In this document: positions 2,652-11,775 of the stretch, one piece after another | Numbering within the stretch: the stretch's first letter is position 1 | Layout of the letters: each line of letters begins with the position of its first letter | DNA from: a virus | IMG/VR virus record: IMGVR_UViG_3300025645_000520 | Coordinates: 1-22,028 of that record | DNA length: 22,028 nt | Reading direction: 5' to 3' (one strand) | Program-made: the position numbers and the translations under genes | The notes under the pieces: generated by a model | Told to the model about the DNA's origin: nothing | Seen by the model: the letters and a program-made list of their open reading frames with translations, nothing else | Databases searched by the model: none

Positions 2652-3404
2652 TTAAAAGAAAAGTTTATTAGTTTTTGTTTCAGGATCATAATAATAATGC
2701 CCTTGAAATGTTATTCTTGAATCTCCTTCTTTTAATTCAAATCCCCCAATTCTATGAGATAATTTTGCTTCCCATATATGTAAACTACCTAATTGATATT
2801 CTTCTGTAGCAGGAACACCAGAATTAGTGGTTATGGTGATAGAATTAGCTGGGCCACTTCCATGGGTACTAAAAGATGAAGATTTAGTAGGACCAGTTTC
2901 ATATTCTAAATAAGGAGTAGTACCTTTAGATTCTATAAGGACAACAAATGAATACATTTTGTTAATATCAAGATTAGGATAATAATCTACAATACTAACA
3001 TCAGTATGATATTTAAACTCATTAAAAGGTTGAGAGTGGGAAGCATATACATGAAACCCAGGTATAGTAAGATCAAGTTCTAATTCGGATTCTATAGATG
3101 TAATTTCTGTAATTTTATTTATGGTTTTTGTATACAACCAATAAAATTTTTCTAATAGTGCAAATTGAGTTCCTAGGGTTATATCTTCCTTATGTCCCTC
3201 TAATCTATATAAAGGATCACCTAAAAGATATTCTGCTTTGTATTGATCCCTTAAAACTTCTATAATAGGAGTGTCTTTATAGGGTAATAAACCTGAATTT
3301 CTATATTCAGAGGAATGTTTCCAATATTGTTTTAAATCATAAACTCCATCTTTAATTAAATTAATTTCAGATAAGGATAAAAAGTTTGGATAGTTTTGAA
3401 CCAT
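2652..3404 (-). CDS. 2-oxoglutarate/Fe(II)-dependent oxygenase-like protein
   Basis: A 250-residue protein with the residue order of a 2OG-Fe(II) dioxygenase. A beta-strand leads to FKYHTDVSIVD with an HxD pair (H133, D135). About 80 residues later come a second histidine in LSHRIGG (H217) and an arginine in SRITFQGHYYYD (R230) that could bind 2-oxoglutarate. Length and spacing fit a compact prolyl-hydroxylase-type jelly roll. Such enzymes are frequent in T4-like phages of marine bacteria, but their targets are mostly unknown. The gene sits between tail tube and tape-measure chaperone, immediately after a terminator, and starts ATGGTTCAAAAC with no visible promoter of its own. That suggests read-through expression with the tail genes. 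Substrate unknown: a virion protein or a host protein are both possible. A non-catalytic beta-sandwich virion protein is the main alternative. Confidence 0.6.
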   Translation of the reverse strand: MVQNYPNFLSLSEINLIKDGVYDLKQYWKHSSEYRNSGLLPYKDTPIIEVLRDQYKAEYLLGDPLYRLEGHKEDITLGTQFALLEKFYWLYTKTINKITEITSIESELELDLTIPGFHVYASHSQPFNEFKYHTDVSIVDYYPNLDINKMYSFVVLIESKGTTPYLEYETGPTKSSSFSTHGSGPANSITITTNSGVPATEEYQLGSLHIWEAKLSHRIGGFELKEGDSRITFQGHYYYDPETKTNKLFF

Positions 3405-3471: not shown

Positions 3472-3960
3472 TTAGAAGTTTAAGATACAATAATCTGGTT
3501 GTACTGTAATGCTTATGTTCTGAGCAGTATCTACAGTATCCCAATTATAATCTCCAAATGATGTACTTGTAATAAATGCACCTTTTATAATCCATTCAGA
3601 TACAATATCTCCTACAGGTCCTAGTACGTTAAAAGTAAGATCTTTTTTATAAAAATCACTATACCCATCACGACCAGTAACTGATTCGTGGTGTAAACGT
3701 ACCCATTCCATAGTTGCTTGTGCTCCAGATGGTGTAATTGGGTCAAATAATGTTAAAGAAATTGGATCCCAAGTGGATTTTCCTTTTACATATCTTGATA
3801 CATTAATATGATTTAATTCAACTGTACCTTGTGATAAGGTTACAGCCCCTACTTCTTTTACTAAATAAGCAGGAATACCGTCAATATACATGACGAATCT
3901 GTTTGCTTGTTTTGGCTCAAAAGCGGTGAAAAATATTTCGTTTGGATCTAATACTGCCAT
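3472..3960 (-). CDS. gp19: Tail tube protein
   Basis: A 162-residue protein, essentially the length of T4 gp19 (163). It has the expected layout: FEPKQANRFVMYIDGIPAYLVKEV near the N-terminus, a mid-section VSRYVKGKSTWDPISLTLFDP, the MEWVRLHHESVTGRDGYSDFYKKDL segment around residues 83-107, and a C-terminal strand ending ISITVQPDYCILNF. This fold forms hexameric rings that stack into the inner tube through which DNA passes, surrounded by the sheath. It directly follows the sheath gene, as in most contractile phages. It has a copy of the recurring promoter-like motif 11 bases before ATG and a strong terminator after it, so it can be transcribed as a single-gene unit, which would fit the high copy number needed. 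Confidence 0.9.
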   Translation of the reverse strand: MAVLDPNEIFFTAFEPKQANRFVMYIDGIPAYLVKEVGAVTLSQGTVELNHINVSRYVKGKSTWDPISLTLFDPITPSGAQATMEWVRLHHESVTGRDGYSDFYKKDLTFNVLGPVGDIVSEWIIKGAFITSTSFGDYNWDTVDTAQNISITVQPDYCILNF

Positions 3961-4002: not shown

Positions 4003-6372
4003 TTACGCTGGAAATGTTGCTCCAGTTGGTAATACATTGAAATCTAGGATTACAAATTCTGCTGTTTTGGTTGGTTGTAAGAAAATCTGACCTACTAACT
4101 CATTTCTATCTATTGTAGATGCTGTGTTATTGGTATCATCCATTACTACTTTAAAAGCATATAATCCCTGTCTTTGTTGTACTCCTTCTAAATATGGGTT
4201 AACTACACTTAAGAAGTTATTTCTTGTAGCAATTGTATTTTGTTCAAATACTAAACCATCAGCTACTCCAGATATAAATCCTTTAAGGGAAATTAATAGT
4301 CTACGTACATTTACTCTATCTAAAGCACTGGCACGTTTTTGTAATGTTTTCTGACCAAATACAACTACTCCAGATTGTGGGAAAGTTGCTAATGGGTTAA
4401 CGTTTGCTTCATATAAAGTATCTCTATTAGTTGCAGATAATTTTCTTTCAGCTCTAACTACTTGACCTAAAGCTCCTCTAGTTAATCCAGCAGGTGCAAA
4501 CCATGGTTCACTTGAAGCGTCTGTAAATACATACACTCCAGGAATTACAGTTGAAGCTGGTGAATAAACTAATTCGCCAGTTTGTGGATCAATCATTTGA
4601 ACCCATGGCCAATAAGTTGCAGCATAACTGTTATCAAATGCAGCAGCAGCTTGTGAAACTGATGCTATTGAACTACCATATTTTACTAAATCTAGTACTG
4701 CGATTGCATCGCCTCTTTGGATTGTATTTGATAATAAAGATGTTGTTTGAGTTGCGTGAGTTGCGTTAAGTAACCCAGGAGCACTAATAACATTATATTG
4801 GTATTCATCTACATTTCCTAATAGAGCAATTGCGTTATCATAATTACTACCAGTTAATCCTTGTGTATCAAATGCAGCGCCATCTCCTATGTTTCCATAA
4901 AAATTAGCAACACGTCCTGAAGTAGCTGTTGTTATATTTTCTCCCTCTGCTCCATTAAATGAACCAGAAGATACTGCTGGTAAAGAACCTGTAAATTCAG
5001 ATTTTGCTTGACCATTATTATCGAAATAATTTGGTGTTTTTAAATTTACTGATTTTACTCTTACATATCTTGATAAATTAGCGTAAGATCCTGATTCTTG
5101 AATGAAGTAATCTGATCCCTCATTAACTAAATTTTTATTAATATCACCAATTTGTGCTGATATATAATTTGGTTGATATGGGTCTAGTGATAAGTTATTA
5201 TATTGTTCTAATACTACTTGTTGGTTTGTATTATCATTACCTCTACGAATAAGCAAACTAAATGTTCCTGAAGCTGTATTTACTGAAGGAATTGACCAAC
5301 GAACATTTTCTGCTGATCCTGTTGATAAAGCACCACCTGTTAATTCGGTTGTACCGGTATTCATTACCCCTCCTTCTGAAATTGTTTCTAATTCAAAAGG
5401 TGTAACATCATCTGATAAATTAGCAGCAACTAAAGTTACTGTAAAAGTTCCGGCAGTTAAATCTGCTGATGTTACTGTAAGTACTACATCTGTACCTGCT
5501 ACTCCTCCTAAAGCTGCTTGTAGAACAGTTCCGGACCAAGTAAATGTATCATTTACTTTAACTCCTTCTCCAACTGATGTAGCTGTAATAGTTGTTAAAG
5601 TAGCATCACCCGTTCCTGTAACTCCTTCAAAAGTTAAAGACCAAGCTTGACCTGTTGCTGTTGTACTTGTTGTTGATGAAGGGTTAATTGTAGTTGTTCC
5701 TGCATCATAAGTATCTGTTGATCCAAATGTAGTTGAACCTGATAATTCTGTTGCTACAATTGGTGAACCACCATTATCGTTTGTTGAAAAAGTTAATGTG
5801 TCTCCTAAATTGTACCCTGTACCCGCGGTTGAAGCTGTTATTGCTACTGGTGCACCGGCATCAATAGAAAGTTTAAATGTAGCTCCTGTTCCACTACCAT
5901 TTGTTGAAAAGGTAGCATTTGTAAGATCATATGCTGTAGCTCCGTCTATAGACCCTGTAAAATCTGAACCAGCATCAACACCTGCAGCAAATAAAGCTGC
6001 GGCATTAGTAGCTATATCAGCACCTGTACCTGTTTTTAATTCTGAACCATCTACGGTGTTAATAAATGAACTTGTAGCAGAAGTAAAGGTTTCTGGAGTT
6101 ACTCTAGTAACTAGTAAACTTGTTCCACCACTTTGAAAATAGTTATTCGCTGCTAATGAAGTCAAATATGAATAAGCAACGGATGCACTTTGTACTGTAG
6201 TACCAAAAATTGCTGTATATTCACTAAAAGAGGTAACCAATGTAGGTACTTCAACAGGTCCTAAAGCAGCTGGTCCTATAATAGCAGCACCAATTTCTGC
6301 TGGTTGTTGAGTAATAAATGATTGGTCGTTTTCTCTAGCTAATACACCTGGAGATAATAATGTTTCTGCCAT
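4003..6372 (-). CDS. gp18: Contractile tail sheath protein with large Thr/Gly-rich insertion
   Basis: A 789-residue protein, about 130 residues longer than T4 gp18 (659). The N-terminus (MAETLLSPGVLARENDQSF, then IGAAIIGPAALGPVEVPTLVTSFSEY) and the C-terminal third are classic sheath sequence: PWFAPAGLTRGALGQV, LYEANVNPLATFPQSGVVVFGQKTL, DRVNVRRLLISLKGFI, and RNELVGQIFLQPTKTAEFVILDFN. The sheath surrounds the tube and contracts to drive it into the cell. Residues of about 105-355 form an insertion rich in Thr, Ser, Gly and Asp with beta-strand character, including GTGYNLGDTLTFS and the looser GEGVKVNDTFTWS. This is probably one or two outward-facing domains, the region that varies most among sheath proteins. 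The gene is preceded by a coiled-coil gene and followed by the tube gene. ATG follows a promoter-like motif by 23 bases. Confidence 0.93.
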   Translation of the reverse strand: MAETLLSPGVLARENDQSFITQQPAEIGAAIIGPAALGPVEVPTLVTSFSEYTAIFGTTVQSASVAYSYLTSLAANNYFQSGGTSLLVTRVTPETFTSATSSFINTVDGSELKTGTGADIATNAAALFAAGVDAGSDFTGSIDGATAYDLTNATFSTNGSGTGATFKLSIDAGAPVAITASTAGTGYNLGDTLTFSTNDNGGSPIVATELSGSTTFGSTDTYDAGTTTINPSSTTSTTATGQAWSLTFEGVTGTGDATLTTITATSVGEGVKVNDTFTWSGTVLQAALGGVAGTDVVLTVTSADLTAGTFTVTLVAANLSDDVTPFELETISEGGVMNTGTTELTGGALSTGSAENVRWSIPSVNTASGTFSLLIRRGNDNTNQQVVLEQYNNLSLDPYQPNYISAQIGDINKNLVNEGSDYFIQESGSYANLSRYVRVKSVNLKTPNYFDNNGQAKSEFTGSLPAVSSGSFNGAEGENITTATSGRVANFYGNIGDGAAFDTQGLTGSNYDNAIALLGNVDEYQYNVISAPGLLNATHATQTTSLLSNTIQRGDAIAVLDLVKYGSSIASVSQAAAAFDNSYAATYWPWVQMIDPQTGELVYSPASTVIPGVYVFTDASSEPWFAPAGLTRGALGQVVRAERKLSATNRDTLYEANVNPLATFPQSGVVVFGQKTLQKRASALDRVNVRRLLISLKGFISGVADGLVFEQNTIATRNNFLSVVNPYLEGVQQRQGLYAFKVVMDDTNNTASTIDRNELVGQIFLQPTKTAEFVILDFNVLPTGATFPA

Positions 6373-6430: not shown

Positions 6431-6682
6431 CTATTTTAGTTTAATAAATTCTCCTTTTTCTAGGTCAATATTACCTTCTCCATACTTTTCTTGTAATTCT
6501 TTACCTGTTTTTTCTTGGTCTTGGAGGAGTGATTGATATTGGTTTTGGAGATTTTTTTTATCCTTTTCTAAAAATACTTTCCTTAATTCAATTTGGCCTA
6601 GGGAAAAAGTAATTTCGTTTTCTGATCTTTGGAAATCTTTTAATTTTTGTAACTCTTCTTGTAATAACTTTGTTGTACTCAT
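6431..6682 (-). CDS. Small coiled-coil protein of unknown function
   Basis: An 83-residue, highly charged, almost entirely helical protein rich in Glu, Lys, Gln and Leu. A long coiled coil (about residues 5-70) contains LLQEELQKLKDFQ and KDKKNLQNQYQSLLQDQEKTGKEL, separated by a short break near FSLGQIELRK, and it looks like a prefoldin-like helical hairpin. The tail is NIDLEKGEFIKLK. I do not recognise a family. It sits between the glycosyltransferase pair and the sheath gene, with a promoter-like motif 5 bases before its ATG, and has no Shine-Dalgarno sequence. A small assembly factor for the tail is possible by position but unsupported. T4 has terminase genes 16 and 17 at this place, and this protein does not resemble a small terminase by any motif I can see. 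Confidence 0.7.
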   Translation of the reverse strand: MSTTKLLQEELQKLKDFQRSENEITFSLGQIELRKVFLEKDKKNLQNQYQSLLQDQEKTGKELQEKYGEGNIDLEKGEFIKLK

Positions 6683-6706: not shown

Positions 6707-8503
6707 TTATTCTATTCTATTATAAATATCACTTTCTAATTTAGAAGTAAGGTTTATTAGTTCATTATTATGATAATATCCCAGGTCTTCTATTTTAGAA
6801 AAATATACAGTAAATTGTTTATCATTTAAGGTAATATCCTCTCCATTTACTCTTATCTTTATTTGTTTTTCTTCAAAATTATCATATATAAAAACTTTAT
6901 TTTCAGAAAAAAACAATTTGTATTGATCATTACTTTTATTATAATTTAATACATCAGGGTTTCCTGTATTTAACATTCCTACAATTTCAGTTTCAACTTT
7001 AACATAATTAAAATTAGAAATTAAATGACCCCAATATGCTTCTGCATCTGTAAAAGATTGTCCCGTTGTTGGGTTTGAGCTAGTATATTCTTGTTTGGAT
7101 ATTAAGTTATTAATTTTGTTAGCATTTTCTTTACTTAAAATATTAAATAATAGGCTTGGGAATAAAGAGGCATTAGTAGTAGGATCTTTAAAATCACTAC
7201 ATATAAAATCTTTTGGATTATTAATCATATTTAACACCCCCTGAGTTATTTCTATATCGTAATTTATAAAAGAATAGTGAGAATAATCTAAATTTTGACA
7301 AAAAGCAATAGCATTCTTTTTTAAATTGAAAACTGTCCACCCATAATCATTCATCATATGTGATATTTTTATTGGAGGTTTTTCACCACATGGTGTACAT
7401 TCAATATTAACGCTTTTCCAAAATACCATTCCTCTTTCAGGATATTTTAGAATAGGATTACTCTTATCATACACTAAATAATCTATATTATTTTGAATTT
7501 CTATTGGAAGAGGGGAATGGGTAGATACCAATATATCATATTTATCTTTTAATGATAAAATCATATTGGATAATAAGTCAAGTTTACGTTGGGTATCGCA
7601 ATAACATAAAATAATAACTAAATTTTTATTTTTCATAATATTATAATCATTAAATGCTTTTTCTAAAGTTTTAGCACTTTTGGGTTTTACTGAAGGGTCT
7701 GGTCCGTGTATAAAATAGGGTTCTAATGAAGATTTATCGTACATAACATCAAATCCTTGTTTTAAAAAATATGGGTTAACTAAAGTTTCTTCTTTTGAAC
7801 TATAATAGTTATTCCAGGTAATTGGTAAATCTAATATTTTGTTTTCTTCCCATAATACATTATTTGCTACTCTTTCTTCGGAAAAAGCATTGTCATCTGC
7901 ATATAGTTTAAGGCTATAATTATTTAATTCTTTATTCCATTCTAAACATTTTTCAAAGAATGGTTTACTATCCCTATTATAAAAATAAAAATTAGCGGCC
8001 AATAATTTTTGGTTTGGGTTTCTTTTAATGTTCTTTATAGCAGCTATCTCACCCCCATAATTACCTTCTAATCTTATACCTTTATGATGTCTCCATTGAT
8101 TAATGTCTTTATGAAAATATTGAGCAAATAAAGGGTAATCCTTTAAAGATGATAAGTATTGTAAAGAGTTATCGATATTTTCAGTTACAAAAGCATCACC
8201 ATCTATCCATGCAAAGTTATTATAATTTTCTTCTAATGAATCTAGATTTGCTAAATACTTAGCAAAATATATAGAATAATCTTTATGAAATAAATCGGGT
8301 TCATGTGTAGAATTTATAGTAGGTTTAGGATTATAATTAATTCTTTTATTAGTTACATTAGGTAAATCAATTGTAGAATCACAATTAAAACCATATACTA
8401 TAAGTTTGTATTCTGAATATTTTAGTAAACTTTTAGCAAGTACCTCAATCATTGATAAATAATTTTGGTTCCCTCCTGTTGTCCAAACAAATTTATTATT
8501 CAT
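6707..8503 (-). CDS. Large two-domain glycosyltransferase-like protein
   Basis: A 598-residue protein that looks like two glycosyltransferase-A-type domains in tandem. Domain 1 (about 1-285) begins MNNKFVWTTGGNQNYLSMIEVLAKSL, has a DxD metal and sugar-nucleotide motif in FAWIDGDAFVTEN (D101, D103), a second acidic YADDNAF (about 201-207) and a late histidine in PYFIHGPDP (H266). This resembles GT8-like enzymes. Domain 2 (about 293-540) starts LVIILCYCDTQRKLDLLSNMILSLKDKYDILVSTH and has FINYDIEI near 412-419 as a candidate metal-binding turn. The last 50 residues look beta-rich. The start overlaps the end of the upstream glycosyltransferase gene by 8 bases (8496-8503), so the two are probably translationally coupled and work in one pathway. 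Substrate and acceptor unknown. Soluble: no membrane segment is visible. Confidence 0.7.
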   Translation of the reverse strand: MNNKFVWTTGGNQNYLSMIEVLAKSLLKYSEYKLIVYGFNCDSTIDLPNVTNKRINYNPKPTINSTHEPDLFHKDYSIYFAKYLANLDSLEENYNNFAWIDGDAFVTENIDNSLQYLSSLKDYPLFAQYFHKDINQWRHHKGIRLEGNYGGEIAAIKNIKRNPNQKLLAANFYFYNRDSKPFFEKCLEWNKELNNYSLKLYADDNAFSEERVANNVLWEENKILDLPITWNNYYSSKEETLVNPYFLKQGFDVMYDKSSLEPYFIHGPDPSVKPKSAKTLEKAFNDYNIMKNKNLVIILCYCDTQRKLDLLSNMILSLKDKYDILVSTHSPLPIEIQNNIDYLVYDKSNPILKYPERGMVFWKSVNIECTPCGEKPPIKISHMMNDYGWTVFNLKKNAIAFCQNLDYSHYSFINYDIEITQGVLNMINNPKDFICSDFKDPTTNASLFPSLLFNILSKENANKINNLISKQEYTSSNPTTGQSFTDAEAYWGHLISNFNYVKVETEIVGMLNTGNPDVLNYNKSNDQYKLFFSENKVFIYDNFEEKQIKIRVNGEDITLNDKQFTVYFSKIEDLGYYHNNELINLTSKLESDIYNRIE

Positions 8504-10784
8504 TAAGTAAAGGTTTTATTTTATGTAATACTTGTTCTACGGAAATAGATTTTTGGCAAATATGTTGTTTATGTGTTCCCTTATTTTCTGGGCACCAATC
8601 CCAGTCCCCTGCATCGAATACATGAGTATTATGAGTCCAACAATTATTACATACGTTATGGTTTTCAATTTTAGTTAAGTTATTAGGTATGTCATACCCA
8701 TAAGGAACAAAATTATTTATCATTATTGTATGTTTATTTAAAGCCCAGTTTATCCAAGATAATCCTGATCCTAGTCCTATAAATAAATCGGAATGGTGTA
8801 TATAATTAAATAGTTCATCCCAAGGTAATTTTGATTTATCTATTATATTAGTTCCCTTAAAACCATTTAAAGTTAAACTAACTACTTTATAACCCTTAGA
8901 ATGTAATATCTTAGCTAAATTTCTCCAATTTTCATGAGGCCATTCTTTTAACCCAGATGTTGATTGAGGTCCTATACAAACATATTTTCCTTTTATAGGT
9001 CTTTTATGTGGGGTAAAATTAATACCATGGTTTATAGGAGTATAAGGAATATTTAAAATATCACTTGATGTTTTTATTAAAGGGATAGTATTTACTTGGT
9101 TAGGATGGTCGGAGAAATTTTTCCATCCTCCTTTTTCATCTCTAAACCACCCAATTTGGAAATGGGCATAACTTGGGGGGTTATCTCCAGGGTTTACGAA
9201 TGTTATATCTTTATATGGTTTTAAATTTTTAAACCACTCATTATGGAATGTGCTAACTATGACATTACATTTATATTTATTTTTAAATTCTACTATTTGA
9301 GGTGCCCAAGCTAAGGTATCTCCTATTGATTTTGATTCAAATGATATTTTTACAGTTTTATCTTTTAAACTAAAGGTGTGTACTATTTTACCATTTATTT
9401 TTATTATCCAAGGTATATGATAGCTTTTATTACATTTAGTCCACATATTGTTACTGATGGTACTACTATGAAGGGTTTTATTAGTAGACCCATCTATAAA
9501 TTCAACAAAATATTTGTTGTTATGATGACCTAGTACTTCTACTTTAGGACCTAAATTAAAACTTATTTCCACTTTATTCTTAGGTAAACTTTCTAACAAA
9601 TCTTCAATTTCTTTACCTGCGATTTTAGCAGCATTTTCCCATGTAAATTTTTCTCGTATTTCAATAGATTCTTTTAATGCCCGTTTTTTATGTTTTTTAT
9701 AGTTAATATAAGCATCTCTCATTACTTTTTTTAAGTCATTAAAATCGGGATCATAAAATTCCCCCTCTAACATTTCTTGAGAAAAACTACTATATTCACC
9801 TTTTTTAGCTTTTGATGTAGATAATATGTTTACAGGTAATCCTAACCCCTCTGCAAATTCTAATTGTGCACTACAGTTAGAATAAATGGAGGGAGTACCA
9901 CAAGCCATAGCTTCAATTAGAGGTAAATTCCATCCTTCTGATCTTGCGCAAGATAAAAAAACATGCCCCTTTTGTAAATACTTAATGTATTCTTTCCTAG
10001 TTGGGAAATGTTTTATTTTAATTCTGGGGTCATTTAAATTATAGTTTTTAAGTCTATTTTCTGTAGATTTAAATTCATCTTTAGCATAGGGGTTATCAAT
10101 AGATACTATTAAATCCACGGGTTCATCCTCATTAAATTCTTGTAAAAAAGATTCTATAATTTCCTTAGTAGATTTTCTATAATCCCACCTACCAAATAAA
10201 ATAAATTTAAACCTATTATCTTTATATTCGGGAAGGGTTGATTTATTATTAGGTTTAAAAATTGACCCATCTACAGCTTCAGGTACTACTTTTACTTTAT
10301 GAGGTTCTATTCCTTGTTCTATAGTACAATCTCTTTGCCATTTAGAAGCAACCCAAACTTGATCAAAAGTTTTTAATTGATTGAAAAAATAATCAGGTTG
10401 TCTTGTAGTTTCCCAAACATTATAAGCAATCTTAGGACCATCATAGTTTTGATAGAAAAAATGATGGTTAGTTTCATTAAGGATAATATTTACATTATGT
10501 TTAAAAGTGTTTGGGTGTTCTTTATAAAAGGGGTAATGTTGAAGGGAATTATCATTATCCCATAAAGATTGTTCTACTAATAACTTTTTATCTTTATCAT
10601 CAAAATCTTCTTCCCCATTATGAGGTTCATCATTAAAACCATCCCAAGATTTACCTATTGTAAAGTTTCTAACCTTTAAATCATAGAGGTTAGAAAGTTC
10701 TCTATAAAATGCTCTAGTATGATTTGCATACCCCGTAGTCCCTATATAACTACCATGTGAAAATATTTTTGGTGTTTTCTTCAT
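8496..10784 (-). CDS. GT4-type glycosyltransferase fused to a TibC/Aah-like O-heptosyltransferase
   Basis: A 762-residue two-enzyme fusion. Residues of about 1-400 form a GT-B, GT4-like transferase: nucleotide-binding half with FILFGRWDYRKSTKEII (193-210) and the E-x7-E signature in SEGWNLPLIEAMACGTP (E283, E291). Residues of about 405-762 match my memory of the bacterial autotransporter heptosyltransferase family (TibC, Aah). They show a beta-domain with VEFIDGS and NMWTKC, ISFESKSIGDTLAWAPQIVEF (about 480-500), YVCIGPQSTSGLKEWPHENW, and DLFIGLGSGLSWINWA. They end in CNNCW...DWDWCPENKGTHKQHIC. The four cysteines C712, C715, C731 and C743 correspond to the iron-binding motif described in that family. 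TibC attaches heptose to serines of a surface protein. In a phage tail cluster the acceptor could be a virion or host surface protein (inference). Start chosen at MKKTPKIF. The gene is followed by a coupled second transferase. Confidence 0.85.
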   Translation of the reverse strand: MKKTPKIFSHGSYIGTTGYANHTRAFYRELSNLYDLKVRNFTIGKSWDGFNDEPHNGEEDFDDKDKKLLVEQSLWDNDNSLQHYPFYKEHPNTFKHNVNIILNETNHHFFYQNYDGPKIAYNVWETTRQPDYFFNQLKTFDQVWVASKWQRDCTIEQGIEPHKVKVVPEAVDGSIFKPNNKSTLPEYKDNRFKFILFGRWDYRKSTKEIIESFLQEFNEDEPVDLIVSIDNPYAKDEFKSTENRLKNYNLNDPRIKIKHFPTRKEYIKYLQKGHVFLSCARSEGWNLPLIEAMACGTPSIYSNCSAQLEFAEGLGLPVNILSTSKAKKGEYSSFSQEMLEGEFYDPDFNDLKKVMRDAYINYKKHKKRALKESIEIREKFTWENAAKIAGKEIEDLLESLPKNKVEISFNLGPKVEVLGHHNNKYFVEFIDGSTNKTLHSSTISNNMWTKCNKSYHIPWIIKINGKIVHTFSLKDKTVKISFESKSIGDTLAWAPQIVEFKNKYKCNVIVSTFHNEWFKNLKPYKDITFVNPGDNPPSYAHFQIGWFRDEKGGWKNFSDHPNQVNTIPLIKTSSDILNIPYTPINHGINFTPHKRPIKGKYVCIGPQSTSGLKEWPHENWRNLAKILHSKGYKVVSLTLNGFKGTNIIDKSKLPWDELFNYIHHSDLFIGLGSGLSWINWALNKHTIMINNFVPYGYDIPNNLTKIENHNVCNNCWTHNTHVFDAGDWDWCPENKGTHKQHICQKSISVEQVLHKIKPLLNE

Positions 10785-10851: not shown

Positions 10852-11775
10852 TTACTCTTGACGAGTTTGCCCACCAGGAAAAGTTCTAACTCCGGGTTTA
10901 AATGTGTCAGCATTACTAGTAGTTTCAAAATTAATTGTAACTTTAGATTTAGAATTCCATTTTTGAATTGAATGCATTTCTTTTTGGATTGTATCAGGTA
11001 TAATATATCCTCTTAATTGGATTTTGAATGTTCCTTTTACTAATCTATCCATACCTTGGGTTAAAGAAGTTTCAGTTGAAAAAGAATCAATAAAAGCTCT
11101 AAATTTAAATCTTTCTGGATTACCCCAATAAGCATCTGAGGCATATTCACAAGCTTCTATAATTTTGTTTAATTGTTCCATATAATAGGACTGCACGATA
11201 ACACTATATTCTAATGTTACAAAATCAGGCATAGCTACTGCATAGTGTTCTTTTACAGGTTTTTTATTATTTAGTACAGAAAAATTATTATAAAAATTAT
11301 CTGGGCTGTACTTTTTTTGGAATGATCCATATAAATTTACCCCATTAGCATCTAACTTATTAGACACTGTTCTATCTTTAGTTAATGTATCCCGTTTTAA
11401 AACAATAATAGGTAACATTATAGCACCATCTTTATCTCTATAATAACCATCACGTTGAAAGGATTTCCACCTTTCAGGTGAACCATATATTACTGGAACA
11501 TTTCTTCTTTCCCCATTTTGGAATACAAAGGGTTTAATTACATTTTTAAAATAATAAAATACTGCTTCATCAAGATCTTGTATACCTATTGAAAATGGTT
11601 TTGTAGAATCTTCTTTAAAGCTTAGTTTTGTAGATCTATTAAAATCTATTCCCGTTTCTGATTCATTAGGGTTAATTCTAGCATTAGGATTACCTCTTTC
11701 AGTGTCATAAGCAGTTTGCTGTTCAACACTTAATTGTCTTTGGGTTTTTGGTATTGGTTTTCTAATTTTGCTCAT
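10852..11775 (-). CDS. gp15: gp15-like tail sheath terminator / stabilisation protein
   Basis: A 307-residue protein (T4 gp15 is 272). Residues 1-55 form a Pro/Asn/Glu-rich, probably flexible extension. The gp15-like core has a strand with RRNVPVIYGSPERWKSFQRDGYYRDKDG (about 95-120), then LPIIVLKRDTLTKDR, then a beta-alpha segment with YSVIVQSYYMEQLNKIIEACEYASDAYWG, and late strands FKFRAFIDSFSTETS and GTFKIQLRGYIIPD. In T4, gp15 forms a hexameric ring that caps the tail tube and sheath and joins them to the neck. Its ATG overlaps the stop of the gp14-like gene by one base (ATGA-type junction), so these genes are translationally coupled. That context, right after gp13 and gp14, supports the call strongly. 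No Shine-Dalgarno sequence is visible. Confidence 0.82.
   Translation of the reverse strand: MSKIRKPIPKTQRQLSVEQQTAYDTERGNPNARINPNESETGIDFNRSTKLSFKEDSTKPFSIGIQDLDEAVFYYFKNVIKPFVFQNGERRNVPVIYGSPERWKSFQRDGYYRDKDGAIMLPIIVLKRDTLTKDRTVSNKLDANGVNLYGSFQKKYSPDNFYNNFSVLNNKKPVKEHYAVAMPDFVTLEYSVIVQSYYMEQLNKIIEACEYASDAYWGNPERFKFRAFIDSFSTETSLTQGMDRLVKGTFKIQLRGYIIPDTIQKEMHSIQKWNSKSKVTINFETTSNADTFKPGVRTFPGGQTRQE

Follow-up and report, generated by a model that had tools for sequence, protein, structure and literature searches.

A TibC-like glycosyltransferase fused to a GT4 enzyme in an optional tail-operon cassette of T4-like phages

A candidate virion-modifying enzyme encoded among phage tail genes

The TibC-type enzyme of E. 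coli attaches heptose sugars to surface adhesins. Here, we analyse a viral relative of this enzyme, encoded in a stretch of 22,028 nucleotides (IMG/VR record IMGVR_UViG_3300025645_000520, positions 1 to 22,028; hereafter the window). The gene (8496..10784 on the minus strand, stop codon included; minus-strand features are marked − below) encodes a fusion glycosyltransferase of 762 amino acids, in which a transferase of glycosyltransferase family 4 (GT4; residues 1-395; 9600..10784, −) precedes a TibC/Aah-like GT9 domain of the bacterial autotransporter heptosyltransferase (BAHT) family (residues 404-762; 8496..9575, −). Since a TibC-like enzyme stands among tail genes and relatives carry genes that seem capable of making its sugar donor, it is probable that these viruses decorate their own particles with sugars. 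The reading we favour, with a probability of about one half, is late O-glycosylation of a virion protein by the cassette enzyme of a T4-like phage, probably initiated with a heptose.

In the mechanism we propose, the cassette would be expressed late, as its position in the tail operon suggests. The TibC-like domain would initiate the glycan, placing a heptose-type sugar, probably taken from ADP-heptose, on Ser or Thr of a virion protein, with D489 acting as the base. The GT4 domain and the overlapping tandem GT-A protein (described below) would then extend the glycan, and the particle surface would be protected or varied. We infer the donor, the acceptor, the order of the sugars, the oligomeric state, the benefit, and the late expression.

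The open reading frame (ORF) of 762 codons is intact, and the plus strand of the same stretch is full of stops. An assembly artefact can be ruled out as the source of the fusion because the same GT4-BAHT architecture occurs in 111 ORFs from independent metagenome contigs (with some contig redundancy). Both domains are under purifying selection: comparisons with four homologues gave dN/dS ratios of 0.10-0.11 for GT4 and 0.12-0.22 for BAHT. The AlphaFold model of the fusion has a mean confidence (pLDDT) of 88.5, and its best match in the PDB is TibC (Foldseek E 5.3e-30; TM-score, taken on the target, 0.81); enzymes of the GT4 type come next.

The C-terminal domain is related to TibC and lacks its thumb

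Protein heptosylation by the TibC/AAH family has been described for bacterial autotransporter adhesins (PMC4358343). The original prediction, made from the sequence alone, assigned the C-terminal half of the fusion to this family, and profile, sequence, and fold searches agree with it. Residues 404-757 match the profile TIGR04414 (hepto_Aah_TibC) with an E-value of 1.3e-57 and 195.5 bits, below the curated equivalog cut-off of 200 (198.4 bits at the DNA level, also below it), and residues 408-754 match TibC (4rap) in phmmer with an E-value of 3.3e-31. Among relatives, a 65%-identical one scores 202.7 bits, and Microcystis phage Mel-JY01 scores 317. The domain thus falls with TibC/Aah and not with an unrelated GT9 group devoid of the cysteines; the motifs that had been quoted for it are all present.

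We established residue equivalences from the phmmer alignment to 4rap and the published description of TibC (PMC4358343), and counted conservation over 116 distinct BAHT domains. D489 (9318..9320, −) corresponds to the catalytic base Asp110 and is invariant in 116/116. T609 and K613 (8946..8960, −) correspond to the donor phosphate-binding Thr226 and Lys230, with T/S and K kept in all 116, and W677 aligns with the donor-binding Trp305, where W is likewise invariant. The cysteines C712, C715, C731, and C743 (8556..8651, −) have spacing identical to that of the TibC iron-finger residues Cys339/342/358/370 and are kept in 114 of the 116 domains; the pLDDT of this region is 71-91 by block. On this spacing and the TibC fold, the four cysteines of the phage domain are predicted to form an iron finger.

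The claim that the domain carries the full set of family features thus holds for the catalytic and donor-binding residues and for the cysteines; it fails for three others, one of which, the strand-loop-strand acceptor repeats, is treated below. Arg286, which contacts the adenine of ADP in TibC (PMC4358343), is replaced by L658 (8811..8813, −); Arg occupies this position in only 15/116 domains, and in each of these the thumb loop is longer. The position of TibC Pro300 is taken by G672. Finally, the region of the beta-hairpin thumb is shortened (8820..8867, −) and its F265/V266 tip is absent; in TibC, the thumb builds the dodecamer and is needed for this to be active (PMC4358343). Because Arg286 and the thumb are absent and the TIGR04414 score is just under 200, the domain is, by its sequence, a sister clade of TibC and not a TibC equivalog, and the label 'TibC/Aah heptosyltransferase' is to be taken as a statement of homology.

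Since the thumb is absent, the phage enzyme probably does not form the dodecameric ring of TibC, and the iron finger may still serve in folding, dimer formation, or substrate contact. The loss of a structure that TibC needs for its active form could also mean that the BAHT half is a scaffold, with activity residing only in the GT4 and GT-A domains. We regard this as highly improbable, given that none of the 116 domains departs from the catalytic D, K, and W, that the BAHT half evolves at a dN/dS of 0.12-0.22, and that stand-alone BAHT genes are found at the same site. The shorter domain appears to work without a thumb, which would bear on whether the TibC ring is essential.

An optional glycosylation cassette upstream of the tail sheath

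The window encodes a Gp23 capsid protein, prohead protease, PhoH, neck, sheath, tube, and baseplate proteins, and its source is a T4-like phage infecting aquatic bacteria. Judged by its capsid protein, this phage is closest among cultured ones to Flavobacterium phage immuto (56%) and Mel-JY01 (50%), so that a Bacteroidota host is likely from these sequence relationships, with Flavobacteriaceae as the likely family. The glycosyltransferase genes are found between a conserved gene encoding 307 amino acids (called 'neck protein' from its position; 10852..11775, −) and a block made of cc83, which encodes a coiled-coil-like protein of 83 amino acids (6431..6682, −), the tail sheath (4003..6372, −; PF04984, PF17482, phrog_23), and the tail tube (3472..3960, −; phrog_4542). 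The tail-gene setting noted at the outset is therefore borne out, with sheath, tube, neck, Gp23, and prohead protease as neighbours.

The neck and cc83 genes mark the edges of a site whose content varies. Occupied sites have 2.2-12.4 kb between them, whereas in 13 relatives the gap is only 36-109 bp and there is no BAHT. The glycosylation cassette is thus an optional part of the tail operon of T4-like phages. BAHT was found upstream of the sheath in 27 of the 47 contigs anchored on the tube gene (those with at least 1.5 kb upstream), and it precedes cc83-sheath-tube in nearly all loci in which a sheath gene was detected, an order that persists at identities as low as 35-40% even though the partner domains change. 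The exceptions (relatives' loci carry L numbers) are L191, where no sheath gene follows, L213, where several genes intervene, and the L060 type, which has a different arrangement and no detected sheath. Two loci whose fusion is 100% identical to that of the window (L003/L008) have about 1 kb more between neck and fusion, holding two short ORFs of 143 and 132 amino acids, which suggests a recent gain or loss within the cassette.

This location bears on what the enzyme modifies. WaaC-type GT9 enzymes act on lipopolysaccharide (LPS), and phage glycosyltransferases that alter the host serotype are known. The cassette might, by analogy, modify host surface glycans (LPS, capsule) or a host surface protein, resulting in superinfection exclusion or receptor change. 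We consider this quite unlikely because family and fold searches match the enzyme best to the protein-modifying, iron-finger branch and not to WaaC, and because the gene belongs to a T4-like phage's structural operon. Serotype-altering phage glycosyltransferases are mentioned in PMC12619734, and known DNA-modifying ones are among the work cited there. Glycosylation of the phage's own DNA by the cassette is nevertheless very improbable, as the known BAHT acceptor is a protein and the genes are grouped with tail genes. Among the roles initially put forward, glycosylation of a virion protein is the best supported: the structural operon, the empty sites, and the ADP-heptose-like genes adjoining BAHT in relatives are in its favour, even if no acceptor was identified.

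The thumb-less clade is found on viral contigs

We built a tree of 83 BAHT domains, a thinned set from which L065 was left out. The thumb-less domains, including that of the window, form a clade of 63 rows with 100/100 support, all from viral contigs. The domains with both Arg and thumb are on a separate branch (support 97/98), and a third branch mixes phage members with bacterial ones from Methylobacter and from metagenome-assembled genomes (MAGs) of a Rickettsiaceae and a Bacteroidetes. The thumb-less clade appears to be phage-only within the sampled tree, a claim limited by the sampling.

A scan of bacterial genomes with strict patterns returned seven loci. Two MAG matches, L065 (a 762-amino-acid fusion) and L067, are on contigs with phage sheath and tube genes, and we rejected a bacterial origin of the fusion on this account. 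TIGR04414 exceeded its cut-off in 1 of 301 Flavobacteriaceae genomes, and this hit is the phage contig L067. At least 598 stretches of IMG/VR match the phage BAHT clade.

Relatives carry genes resembling an ADP-heptose pathway

Several of the contigs with BAHT also carry genes for HldC-like and HldA-like proteins. The genes of L048, a locus whose BAHT shares 59% identity with that of the window, are arranged as neck, GT4-like, BAHT, HldC-like, HAD-like, cupin-like, HldA-like, cc83, sheath. Six loci have an operon of this kind at the sheath site, with the donor genes directly after BAHT and in some cases without the cupin. The L060/L245 type and L319/L321/L327 have the order BAHT-HldC-HldA and are in another branch of the tree. 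HldC/HldA-like genes are therefore directly behind BAHT in two separate branches, and our argument from adjacency uses only these two branches. It does not use the 9 of 80 hldC loci that adjoin BAHT (after dropping a false GT9 match in L316), a count biased by the choice of queries from BAHT contigs. Kinase-like genes are in 6/40 contigs with BAHT and 0/10 without, which is in the expected direction, but this enrichment is too weak on fragments and was dropped.

The HldC-HAD-cupin-HldA-like block is recurrent (L048:2592-4414, L242:5234-7071, L243:2823-4651, L246:6108-7936). All four genes, in varying order, are present without BAHT within the examined stretch in 53/80 hldC loci. On the contig of L007, whose fusion is 79% identical to the window's, the block is among replication genes (gp32, RecA-like, exonuclease, DnaB-like). 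No GmhA isomerase was found beside the donor-pathway-like genes of relatives. The best reading of the block from its family matches is a putative ADP-heptose route in which the cupin replaces GmhA, with all members under curated cut-offs. Where it recurs, it may thus be a phage-encoded route with a non-GmhA isomerase. By extension, some of these phages might be self-sufficient, the kinase, phosphatase, adenylyltransferase, and cupin isomerase supplying a thumb-less, phage-only BAHT, in many cases joined to transferases that extend the glycan, which heptosylates virion proteins from its place in the tail operon, in hosts lacking ADP-heptose; we hold this possibility as tentative and rather doubtful.

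Evidence against a heptose donor and the search for an acceptor

Several observations weigh against heptose-initiated glycosylation of a virion protein. The HldA-like proteins score 95-122 bits against rfaE_dom_I (cut-off 345) and the HldC-like ones 98-115 bits against rfaE_dom_II (cut-off 181.5), although these families remain their best matches below equivalog level, and for the HAD and cupin genes the Pfam matches stay under threshold. No hld match was found on two contigs of 119-120 kb whose tail tubes are highly similar (L072, L076) or in the complete genome of Mel-JY01 (190 kb). The Leu at the adenine-binding position means that the donor could differ. The TIGR04415 strand-loop-strand repeats were absent from all 19 related phage records, most of which are fragments. 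Furthermore, neither the Ser/Thr content nor the length of sheath, tube, and cc83 differs with the presence of BAHT; in this crude test, p was 0.30 for sheath length and, for Ser/Thr content, 0.69 (sheath), 0.15 (tube), and 0.51 (cc83).

The enzyme could thus be a protein O-glycosyltransferase using a donor other than heptose, with the loss of Arg286 marking a change of nucleotide or sugar. Leu658 and Gly672, the restriction of Arg to the 15 domains with long thumb loops, and the two long contigs without hld genes fit this possibility. So does the finding that rfaE_dom_II and GmhA each exceeded their cut-offs in 0/121 sampled Flavobacteriaceae genomes of unstated completeness, bearing in mind that these cut-offs may be strict outside Proteobacteria. 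Yet the BAHTs adjoining HldC/HldA-like genes in two branches also lack the Arg. We therefore dropped the idea that its loss proves a new donor; heptose is still compatible with it, and another donor seems to us unlikely.

As for the acceptor, the tail sheath of the window has 789 amino acids, with a Ser/Thr/Gly-rich insert near residues 110-350, and those of relatives have 566-600. We rejected this insert as the acceptor because sheath length does not follow the presence of BAHT. The window's sheath has no NCBIfam match; a window-wide scan for strand-loop-strand repeats was not made.

GT4, GT-A, and the shuffling of partner domains

The separate GT4 transferase with an intact E-x7-E motif, also part of the original prediction, is confirmed by matches to PF00534 (E 1.8e-11, 44.3 bits for a cut-off of 26.4), PF13692, and phrog_2170 (E 9e-31). 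The motif, E283-x7-E291 (9912..9938, −), is invariant in 37 homologues. The construction of a two-sugar unit by this single polypeptide is plausible.

The fusion gene overlaps by 8 bases a gene encoding a protein of 598 amino acids (6707..8503, −), which has no Pfam match. Its AF2 model (pLDDT 76) matches glycosyltransferases of the LH3/ColGalT/LARGE1 type in Foldseek, and we predict with moderate confidence that it consists of two GT-A folds in tandem. In relatives, its first domain is fused to the C-terminus of the fusion protein. BAHT occurs alone (362-374 amino acids), with GT4 (about 760), or with GT4 and GT-A (about 1240). A PIG-L de-N-acetylase-like domain follows the GT-A domain in 9 of 31 aligned relatives (e.g., L022:6290-7753), a hint that the glycan includes an N-acetylhexosamine and that this is de-acetylated.

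In Mel-JY01 (L064:4750-8430), a protein of 1226 amino acids deposited as 'methyltransferase FkbM' reads GT4 - GT-A-like - BAHT, with the 317-bit TIGR04414 match covering its last 360 residues; judging from these domains, the name under which it was deposited seems either incomplete or mistaken. On a 254-kb contig from a Bacteroidetes bin (L071:141-7071), the domains are divided between two proteins: GT4+GT-A, which scores 576 bits against the window's GT4, and GT-A+BAHT.

Comparison with known systems

The phage enzyme shares with TibC/AAH (BAHT, TIGR04414; PDB 4RAP/4RB4) the fold, the N-terminal beta-barrel, the catalytic Asp, the Thr/Lys/Trp residues, and the spacing of the iron-finger cysteines. 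It differs by being phage-encoded, fused to GT4, and placed among tail genes, by its sub-cut-off score, and by lacking Arg286 and the thumb; no autotransporter or strand-loop-strand repeats were found with it. Other phage GT4 enzymes (phrog_2170; Streptomyces phages) resemble only the N-terminal half and have no BAHT. The HldE-annotated genes of cyanophages S-SM2, S-SSM7, and S-CAM1 encode HldC-like proteins about 51% identical to that of L048, but the cyanophage records yielded no BAHT, and these genes are not known to be connected with any enzyme that heptosylates proteins. In mycobacteriophages, the capsid and the tail tube are reported to be glycosylated (Freeman et al. 2023, as cited in PMC12619734). 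This modification shares with our proposal the phage-encoded glycosylation of structural proteins and differs in the phages and hosts.

We found no published description of a phage BAHT in the literature searched, whose coverage excludes many journals. Within it, the enzyme family is known, and what is seemingly undescribed is a thumb-less, GT4-fused phage clade at the sheath, sometimes with donor-synthesis genes. If our proposal is true, particle glycosylation would be common in aquatic T4-like phages and would rely on a sugar familiar chiefly from LPS.

Between tail tube and baseplate hub, the window also encodes a protein of 250 amino acids (2652-3404). It has no Pfam, PHROGs, or NCBIfam match to back an oxygenase assignment; its H-x-D...H spacing resembles that of 2-oxoglutarate/Fe(II) oxygenases, and our guess is a protein of that kind.

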